Shown here: piece by piece, positions 58,652 to 61,290 of the stretch | Numbering within the stretch: the stretch's first letter is position 1 | Layout: every line of letters begins with the position of its first letter | Assembly: GCA_032139905.1 (NCBI GenBank) | Contig: JAQJDB010000006.1 | Coordinates: forward strand, 1,178,001-1,242,000 | DNA: 64,000 nt | DNA from: Nitrospira sp. MA-1 | GTDB taxonomy: Bacteria; Nitrospirota; Nitrospiria; Nitrospirales; UBA8639 | Reading direction: 5' to 3' | Notes under the pieces: generated by a model | Database searches by the model: none | Told to the model about the DNA's origin: nothing | The model's input: the letters and a program-made list of their open reading frames with translations, nothing else | Made by a program: the position numbers and the translations under genes

Positions 58652-59218
58652 TCAGTTAGACGAGGCAGTCGCCGCAACTTGGCTCTGTTGAATGAATCCT
58701 TTCGCAAGGGCCGCATTTTGATACACAACCTTCAACGCCAGGTTCCCGAACGGACGGCGTACGACCTTCAATAATACCTGTCCCTCTTCAAACCCCAAAT
58801 TCAGCTCGTTTTGTTTTCCAGCAAGAAACGATTGCTTGGTCGGTTCGGTGAGGTCCTGTGTGAGGTGATAACTATCTCCTAAGATTATTTGTAACTGCTC
58901 GAACCAGTCCTCCGTGAATTGCCCCATATCGATGGTAATTTTTGCCAGTTTCCGGACCGGTTCGGGTGTGCCTGGAACTGTGTCGGGTAAGTAGGTTAAC
59001 TCCAAATATCGATTTTTATCGGTCAATTCATAGAGGCATTCCGTCGAACTTTTGCAGGCAGGTAAAGCGGATACGTCTTGTTCCGTCATGCCAAATTTTA
59101 AATCGCGGAAGCCATCAATTCCGGGCTCTGCCAACCCTAGAGGTCCAAAAAGAAGGATGGAGGAATAGGCGAGGAGTGAGCAGGCGCGTATGCAGAGGAT
59201 GCGGGAAAGTAGTTTCAT
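58652..59218 (-). CDS. Exported protein, unknown function
   Basis: 188 residues with a signal peptide (about 1-30, cleavage near GLA) and a mature domain containing FRDLKFGMTEQDV at its start, a motif seen in many small periplasmic proteins whose domain begins 'LKFGMT'. Two Cys (CKSSTEC) may form a disulfide. AAGGA precedes the ATG. Role unknown. Confidence 0.65.
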   Translation of the reverse strand: MKLLSRILCIRACSLLAYSSILLFGPLGLAEPGIDGFRDLKFGMTEQDVSALPACKSSTECLYELTDKNRYLELTYLPDTVPGTPEPVRKLAKITIDMGQFTEDWFEQLQIILGDSYHLTQDLTEPTKQSFLAGKQNELNLGFEEGQVLLKVVRRPFGNLALKVVYQNAALAKGFIQQSQVAATASSN

Positions 59219-59473: not shown

Positions 59474-60487
59474 TTAGGGAGATTCCTGATAAATCTGGAG
59501 AAGTGGCCCCATCCAATAGCGCATGGGTCGGTCCCCTTCAGCTGCCTTATGAGGAAGATGGGCGACATACCAAAAGACCACATTGGTCTCTTGGACGCTT
59601 TCATCACTTTTGGATTCCAAATCCCCACGTGCGCCGAATGGCCAGCCGGTATCTTCATCCCGGTAGAATTTTCGAATCGAGACATCACGATTTGAAAAAT
59701 TATTCGAATGGCCATCAAAAGGACCTGGAATAATCCAGACACCCTGTCCGGTGGGATAATCCCGCACAAACCAGACGCGATCCTGGTTATTGCTGGCGGG
59801 TTTCTTGGCATCCTCCTCAACCAGGTATTTTTCCCACCCCGACCCCCAACCGTTGTCGTTTGTAGAATTCCGGTCCAGGACAAAGACCTGATCCTGATCG
59901 GATCCGCCAATATCAAAATCCAGGCGCCAGTAGGCATGGTGATCATGGTCGGTATTACAGGAGAGATTCCAGCTCTGAACAATGGGATATAAACGACCGT
60001 CTTCGCTCAAATACCAGGCTTGATACAGATGGTATTGACCAATTTTGGCATAGACACCTAATTCCAACCACTTGACCCCTTGGATGGTATGTTCGGCCTG
60101 ACACAGCTGTTTGCCATCGCAGTTAGGATTCTTTTTAAGGCGCGGTGGGCTGATCCGGTCTTCGAATGGTCCGCATCGGCCACTGGCCCGCCCAAGCCCA
60201 AACCAACTAAACGGATGCCAGGCCGGCCACTCCCGAACATACTTGACCCGGATCACCGGCAAATCGGCTTTACCTAAAATCTGTTTGCCTTCATAAGACA
60301 CATTGCGTAGCCCGAGGCCAGCAGCATCCTTCATCTCAAGATGTAGGTCCCACGGTCCCCACGTAAACGGTTTGGATTCCCAGTCAGCCAAGGCGGGGCT
60401 GACAGCCAAGACACTGGTCAATGCGACACCGACGATGAAATATCGAAATGATGCCATGCGACCGACTTCTTGTTTGGGAATAGTCAT
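59474..60487 (-). CDS. Exported copper amine oxidase catalytic-domain-like protein
   Basis: 337 residues with a signal peptide (cleavage near ALA-D, about 34). The rest resembles the C-terminal beta-sandwich of copper amine oxidases: GLGLRNVSYEGKQIL (57-71), the HLYQAWYLSEDGRLYPIV strand pair (153-170), the copper-ligand-like HDHH cluster (181-184) in front of AYWRLDFDI, and FWYVAHLPH (305-313) holding a possible third His ligand. The region equivalent to the topaquinone motif (N-Y-D/E) reads GQYHLY (150-155), so cofactor formation is doubtful. About half the size of normal enzymes. Its ATG overlaps the stop of the preceding lipoprotein gene (ATGA). Confidence 0.6.
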   Translation of the reverse strand: MTIPKQEVGRMASFRYFIVGVALTSVLAVSPALADWESKPFTWGPWDLHLEMKDAAGLGLRNVSYEGKQILGKADLPVIRVKYVREWPAWHPFSWFGLGRASGRCGPFEDRISPPRLKKNPNCDGKQLCQAEHTIQGVKWLELGVYAKIGQYHLYQAWYLSEDGRLYPIVQSWNLSCNTDHDHHAYWRLDFDIGGSDQDQVFVLDRNSTNDNGWGSGWEKYLVEEDAKKPASNNQDRVWFVRDYPTGQGVWIIPGPFDGHSNNFSNRDVSIRKFYRDEDTGWPFGARGDLESKSDESVQETNVVFWYVAHLPHKAAEGDRPMRYWMGPLLQIYQESP

Positions 60488-61290
60488 TGGAGTCCTGCCT
60501 CCTTGCCTGCGTCCAAGACGGTCTGAGAAGTGAGGTCAACTCGGGCAAAGTAGAGTGCCGAACTCTCCGGCATTTCAGAAAATGTGACCCACAACACGCG
60601 GTCCCCAAATCCCGCTTCATCGCTCACCCAGAAATACCGGTATTCTTCAGGTGAGGTGAGAATGGCATGTCCGTGCAGATGCTGAATCTCTTGGGAAATT
60701 CGTTGATCTGCTCGTGCCAGTTCAATAGCGGCGGTGATTTCTTCTTCACCTTCTTCGGGTTGGTAGCCTTCACGCGGATCCTGCTGGACAGAAGACATTC
60801 GGTCGTTTTCCATGCAGACATGCACGGCCACATTGTGGGTGTAACTGTAGTAGGTTAACCGATAGGCCGAGGCATCGGAATTCGATGCCCGTTCGGTCGT
60901 TCGAGAGTTACTTGAGTCGTCTCCCTGTAGGATTACCAGGCATTGGTCGGCAGGGACTTTCTCGGTATTGATGTAGGCAAATCGCTCGCCCAATTGGGTC
61001 TTCACGTCCGGATCCCGTTCTGCTGTGGCACGTAAGCCAGATTGGTTGGAATCGACAATGATAATCTCCGGTCCGGGAGCAGATAGGGTCGTAGGAGACA
61101 TGGCATCGACGGGGCGTCGCGGACCGCCTTCTGGTGGTAATTCCAATGGTAATTCTACCAGTGGAGGGGGATGGAAGGGCAGGGGTTTTTTGGGAACCTT
61201 TGTCAGTTCGACGCTGGAACAGCCCAGAAAAAAGCTGCCAAGGACCCAACCGGCCACCATAATGATTTGCGAAGTCAAATTTGCCTTCAT
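60484..61290 (-). CDS. Lipoprotein with amine-oxidase N-domain-like region
   Basis: 268 residues; signal peptide with lipobox FLGC (Cys24), a Pro-rich spacer (35-75), and a C-terminal domain (about 175-265) with EEITAAIELARADQRI, then VLWVTFSEMP and ARVDLTSQTVLDA, the pattern of the N2/N3 domains of copper amine oxidases. The downstream gene, overlapping by 4 bases, encodes the catalytic-like domain, so the two look like a split enzyme, membrane-tethered through this subunit. Family assignment is moderate. Confidence 0.55.
   Translation of the reverse strand: MKANLTSQIIMVAGWVLGSFFLGCSSVELTKVPKKPLPFHPPPLVELPLELPPEGGPRRPVDAMSPTTLSAPGPEIIIVDSNQSGLRATAERDPDVKTQLGERFAYINTEKVPADQCLVILQGDDSSNSRTTERASNSDASAYRLTYYSYTHNVAVHVCMENDRMSSVQQDPREGYQPEEGEEEITAAIELARADQRISQEIQHLHGHAILTSPEEYRYFWVSDEAGFGDRVLWVTFSEMPESSALYFARVDLTSQTVLDAGKEAGLQ

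Follow-up and report, generated by a model that had tools for sequence, protein, structure and literature searches.

Can a copper amine oxidase (CuAO) be divided between two genes, and can the residues around its cofactor tyrosine vary in nature? CuAOs make their cofactor from a tyrosine of their own, and the need for the neighbors of that tyrosine has been studied mainly with point mutants. The question is raised by two overlapping genes, here called A and B, of Nitrospira sp. MA-1 (GenBank assembly GCA_032139905.1, contig JAQJDB010000006.1). They occupy positions 59474 to 61290, on the minus strand, of a 64,000-nucleotide window (the whole stretch of DNA analyzed, contig positions 1,178,001 to 1,242,000). 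A preliminary description had read the pair as a split, membrane-tethered CuAO-like protein. Our analysis leaves little doubt that A and B have the anatomy of a split CuAO, as regards the split, the two folds, and the residue positions. Judging from their sequences, we lean toward A and B forming a functional amine oxidase of two subunits, anchored to the membrane and still making a quinone.

Organization of the gene pair

The overlapping open reading frames (ORFs) reported in the preliminary description were found, and an ATGA sequence joins the stop codon of A to the start codon of B. The features of the pair are as follows.

60484..61290, minus strand: gene A, 268-amino-acid lipoprotein, counterpart of CuAO domains D2 and D3 (N2/N3), from the ORF, the model, Foldseek matches to the Protein Data Bank (PDB), and HHalign
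59474..60487, minus strand: gene B, 337-amino-acid predicted exported protein, CuAO catalytic domain D4, from Pfam PF01179, the fold, and HHalign
60484..60487, minus strand: ATGA overlap, stop of A and start of B, from the sequence
61219..61221, minus strand: lipobox Cys24 of A (GSFFLGC-SS), predicted lipid anchor, from the sequence; motif also in same-genus orthologs
60769..61059, minus strand: D2 (N2)-like alpha-beta4 unit of A, about residues 78-174 (model residues 49-145, model ma611e7983429)
60487..60753, minus strand: D3 (N3)-like alpha-beta4 unit of A, about residues 180-268 (model residues 151-239)
60386..60487, minus strand: predicted signal peptide of B, residues 1-34 (AVSPALA-DW), from the sequence; without counterpart in canonical D4

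The N-terminus of A consists of a lipoprotein signal followed by a proline-rich spacer, and that of B is a Sec-type signal peptide (SVLAVSPALA-DW). From these signals we infer two exported proteins, with A lipid-anchored, as had been proposed.

Gene B corresponds to the catalytic domain

B matched the Pfam family Cu_amine_oxid (PF01179) at 37.2 bits (cut-off, 27; E value, 2.1e-9) and was the sole match to this family in the genome from which the window comes. HHalign comparison with a profile of seven canonical CuAOs gave an E value of 8.8e-12 over 282 columns (profile columns 232-607), and the profile of B matched amine oxidases among PDB sequences. Mature B was modeled from 33 sequences (mean predicted local distance difference test score [pLDDT], 75; predicted template modeling score, 0.79). 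The 50 best PDB matches of the model were all CuAOs, and it aligned with the Arthrobacter enzyme 1avk over 276 residues (VIA-align Z, 26.0; root mean square deviation, 2.8), placing B in the D4 beta-sandwich fold. The preliminary description had called B catalytic-core-like and had named a fold unlike that of amine oxidases as evidence to the contrary; by family match, HHalign, and predicted fold, B is amine-oxidase-like. A single-sequence PDB match of B to a ribokinase (E value, 0.045) was taken as chance.

Gene A corresponds to domains D2 and D3

A had no match in Pfam or NCBIfam and nothing notable among PDB sequences, where a match to a flavin mononucleotide transferase (E value, 0.61) was taken as chance. 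Its identity therefore rests on its fold, on HHalign, and on a natural A-B fusion. A and B were modeled separately because a joint MAFFT alignment with the fused protein, from a Rokubacteria contig (L082), scattered the second half of A. The model of A (34 sequences; mean pLDDT, 75) comprised a long spacer and two repeats, each with a helical segment followed by four strands (alpha-beta4). Thirty-nine of its best 40 Foldseek matches were CuAOs, the other being YpmB at rank 35. The model aligned with residues 14-196 of the Arthrobacter enzyme or 98-285 of the E. coli enzyme, which are D2 plus D3, with Z up to 8.5. HHalign aligned A with columns 11-196 of the CuAO profile (E value, 8e-4, with a probability of merely 24%). 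A Z of 8.5 by itself is about the noise level for models without a clear match; we accepted it because D2-D3 was consistently the part of the CuAOs that was matched, in agreement with HHalign and the fusion. The earlier N2/N3 reading of A is upheld by these three lines of evidence.

In L082, a lipoprotein signal is followed, within one 745-codon open frame, by A-like and then B-like sequence, which is the CuAO order. This fusion resembles the pair in both parts and in its Gln-Tyr-His, with a catalytic part 40% identical to B, and differs in that A and B form one chain behind a single lipoprotein signal. D2 and D3 thus stand ahead of D4 as in CuAOs, on the separate protein A in the window and fused in L082. 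Since A and B jointly cover D2-D3-D4, the gene is cut in the linker between D3 and D4.

Active site and cofactor tyrosine

The active site of B was compared in an alignment of 78 relatives, with E. coli TynA as the reference. The following positions were identified.

60239..60241, minus strand: Tyr83, counterpart of E. coli Tyr369 and yeast (HPAO) Tyr305, cofactor hydrogen bond, from the alignment
60158..60160, minus strand: Asp110 in CGPFxD, candidate catalytic base (E. coli Asp383, Arthrobacter Asp298), from the alignment, column ambiguous
60032..60034, minus strand: Tyr152, topaquinone-precursor position, context GQYHLY, aligned with E. coli Tyr466 and Arthrobacter IGNYDY
59945..59947, minus strand: His181, first copper ligand position (E. 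coli His524), from the alignment
59939..59941, minus strand: His183, second copper ligand position (E. coli His526), from the alignment
59549..59551, minus strand: His313, third copper ligand position (E. coli His689), from the alignment

Tyr83, Asp110, Tyr152, His181, and His183 were each invariant in 78 of 78 rows, which are related and not independent, and His313 was present in all 76 rows long enough to include the position. A profile search of PDB sequences independently aligned the Tyr152 region with Arthrobacter IGNYDY, in which the precursor tyrosine is Tyr382 (Tyr466 in E. coli). Counterparts of the three histidine ligands, the precursor tyrosine, and the cofactor-bonding tyrosine of CuAOs were thus all found by alignment. 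The preliminary description had placed its motifs correctly (GQYHLY with Tyr152, HDH as His181 and His183, and the late His313), and both its suggestions, a tyrosine at the topaquinone position and three histidines at copper-ligand positions, agree with the alignment. Asp110 lies two positions after a Phe or Tyr in all 78 rows, as E. coli Asp383 does after Tyr381 (YLD); because aligners disagree on its exact column, we treat it as a candidate base. Cys123 and Cys129, which were jointly present or absent in 76 of 77 rows, probably form a disulphide.

Among the conserved active-site features, only the consensus flanking Tyr152 is changed, to Lys-Ile-Gly-Gln-Tyr-His in the window protein and to other pairs of residues elsewhere; a form from Nitrospira reads GEYH. 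Across the aligned family, the position of the canonical Asn before the tyrosine is occupied by Glu, Gln, Trp, Asn, His, Thr, or Ala, and that of the canonical Asp/Glu after it by His, Arg, or Asp. One paralog (L115), likewise split and accompanied by an A gene of its own, has the exact Asn-Tyr-Asp. Substitutions at these flanks have been characterized in known enzymes: the yeast (HPAO) N404D variant forms topaquinone at half the rate (PMC3382800), and Arthrobacter N381A still makes topaquinone, at 1/180 of the rate and with 1/160 of the kcat (PMC9491219). Because the catalytic residues are invariant, L115 keeps Asn-Tyr-Asp, and N381A makes topaquinone, the changed flanks alone do not imply loss of the cofactor, which the preliminary description had suggested might be altered or absent. 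By analogy with the variants, they argue for slow or altered cofactor formation.

L115 represents a second type of split pair, with Asn-Tyr-Asp, His-Tyr-Asp, or Thr-Tyr-Asp at the cofactor site (L115:4125-6358, L116:5011-6836, and L030:710-2916). The B protein of L115 carries a C-terminal P-domain (PF01483).

Comparison with known enzymes and single-chain relatives

Like the bacterial CuAOs of Arthrobacter globiformis (AGAO) and E. coli (TynA) (EC 1.4.3.21, PF01179), the pair has the D2, D3, and D4 folds in the same order, the three copper histidines, the precursor tyrosine, and the counterpart of Tyr284/369. AGAO and TynA are single chains of about 650 residues, whereas A and B are two chains from two genes, with the lipid anchor on the D2-D3 chain. 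D4 has about 400 residues in these enzymes and about 300 in B, and their consensus T-x-x-N-Y-D/E reads K-I-G-Q-Y-H in B. With neither the single chain nor the cofactor consensus, the pair is therefore best described as a split variant with a lipid anchor rather than a canonical CuAO.

The closest single-chain clade consists of proteins of 540-581 amino acids from Nitrospira (L117-L120), Variovorax (WP_162487223.1), and Nonomuraea (L140). They have the same His/Tyr/Asp set and the same compact D4 as B, and differ in being one chain, in having Trp-Tyr-Arg at the cofactor site, and in showing no evident signal peptide in those read. They are "hypothetical" wherever annotated. L141 also belongs among these Trp-Tyr-Arg relatives, and the Variovorax gene adjoins a galactose oxidase-like gene. 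A Leisingera caerulea plasmid (L145) encodes a single-chain amine oxidase of canonical length, annotated as hypothetical, with His-Tyr-Asp for Asn-Tyr-Asp.

In a tree of the catalytic domain, the split proteins, the fusion, and the single-chain Trp-Tyr-Arg proteins grouped together, and a long, fully supported branch separated this family from the canonical enzymes. A single split with one later fusion was not distinguished from two splits and was not rejected (approximately unbiased [AU] test, p-AU 0.16). For the types with His after the tyrosine, neither one clade nor multiple origins was preferred, and a single origin was not rejected (p-AU 0.152).

Distribution and conservation

B was present in 32 of 97 related genomes, and its profile was matched in 40 of 295 genomes of the phylum. 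Two strict peptide patterns, run against 84,980 species, matched 53 loci: 51 of the Nitrospirota type (one of them in a record titled uncultured Nitrosospira, isolate NOB2), the Rokubacteria contig, and one fragment on a contig titled Actinobacteria. A lay directly upstream of B in nearly all loci extending that far, and some 50 Nitrospirales loci and a Microvirga plasmid share this adjacency. Ratios of nonsynonymous to synonymous substitution (dN/dS) relative to same-genus orthologs were 0.10-0.16 for B and 0.17-0.23 for A; the pair is under purifying selection. A chance ORF pair is excluded by the presence of B in 32 of 97 genomes, the upstream position of A, and the low dN/dS.

Plasmid records included the split pair of Microvirga ossetica and the single-chain relatives of Variovorax and Nonomuraea. 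In the M. ossetica pair (L139:2289-5073), B is extended by a repeated C-terminal domain, and its annotated start is probably too far downstream. Four genomes (G008, G074, G251, and G308) retained only B remnants of 30-100 amino acids, a sign of repeated loss; the pair can therefore be lost.

Gene context

The neighbors of the pair in the window are a 188-amino-acid exported protein without a family, a DUF547 protein, and a helicase. The first of these (58652-59218, minus strand) follows B, and its homologs likewise follow B in the same-genus loci extending that far. Neither in the window nor in the Nitrospira loci did gene context give a clue to the substrate. In Nitrospira proper (L057:3265-5203 and L045:3481-5215), genes for two helical lipoproteins and a 172-amino-acid helical protein lie upstream of A-B in the same direction. 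None of the three has a family, and the middle one had no match in the genome of the window.

Proposed function and alternatives

The proposed chemistry follows from the invariant residue set, and we give the enzymatic mechanism an even chance. A and B, the halves of a CuAO-type protein cut in the D3-D4 linker, are probably carried on one message and coupled in translation through the stop/start overlap. The halves would be exported separately and most likely reassembled in the periplasm, where A, lipid-anchored to the membrane, would hold B. B would bind one Cu(II) through His181, His183, and His313; copper and O2 would most likely convert Tyr152 to topaquinone or a close variant; and, with Asp110 as the base and Tyr83 as a cofactor contact, a primary amine would be converted to an aldehyde, NH3, and H2O2. 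More tentatively, and with somewhat less than even confidence, we propose that the pair is a two-subunit copper enzyme, anchored to a periplasm-facing membrane of nitrite-oxidizing-type bacteria, whose noncanonical Gln/Glu-Tyr-His setting gives rise to the quinone or to a novel cofactor derived from tyrosine.

Several observations weigh against a quinone-forming enzyme. The mean pLDDT is just 75 in both models, aligners put Asp110 a few columns from Asp383/Asp298, and the genes seen adjoining the pair included no aldehyde dehydrogenase, transporter, or gene for amine use. In yeast (HPAO), topaquinone reaches 5-10% in N404A and forms ten times more slowly in E406Q (PMC3382800). The pair might be a copper protein with the split CuAO fold and no quinone, in which Tyr152, near a three-histidine copper, is ordinary or otherwise modified and which binds or stores copper, reduces it, or performs another oxidation. 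Such a protein would fit the change at the flanking positions, which tune topaquinone formation and here carry Glu/Gln and His (Trp and Arg in the single-chain relatives), and also the slower or lower topaquinone formation of the flank mutants (PMC3382800; PMC9491219). However, the rest of the catalytic set, including the candidate base Asp110 and Tyr83, is invariant, beyond what a protein that only bound copper would require, and a split paralog with Asn-Tyr-Asp exists; we regard this explanation as rather unlikely.

It is improbable that B acts alone or with another partner, A being a separate lipoprotein that merely retains the D2+D3 fold. Further lipoprotein genes do lie ahead of the pair in Nitrospira loci, but the constant adjacency of A and B, the overlap or near-overlap of their genes, their domain order, and their fusion in L082 speak against this reading. 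That the two genes are really one single-chain amine oxidase, frameshifted or decaying, would accord with the genomes retaining only B remnants. This is contradicted by the data: both reading frames are conserved (dN/dS, 0.10-0.23), B has a start codon and signal peptide of its own, and the arrangement is kept in several genera; we consider it extremely improbable.

Significance

In the open-access literature, to which our search was confined (subscription literature was not covered), nothing specific was found on a Nitrospira CuAO or on a split enzyme, and no paper describing the pair. A transcribed "amine oxidase" has been reported in Ca. Nitrospira, in an abstract that does not state its kind (PMC11327836). 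The family described here offers a natural series at the cofactor site (Asn-Tyr-Asp, His-Tyr-Asp, Thr-Tyr-Asp, Gln/Glu/Ala-Tyr-His, and Trp-Tyr-Arg) within an active site that is intact in other respects; among its members is a catalytic domain encoded by a gene of its own, with only about 300 mature residues. If active, the pair would let nitrite-oxidizing bacteria convert amines to ammonia and H2O2 at the surface or in the periplasm, a route absent from the usual descriptions of their metabolism. If the proposed reading is true, neither a single chain nor the Asn-Tyr-Asp/Glu consensus would be required for chemistry of this kind.
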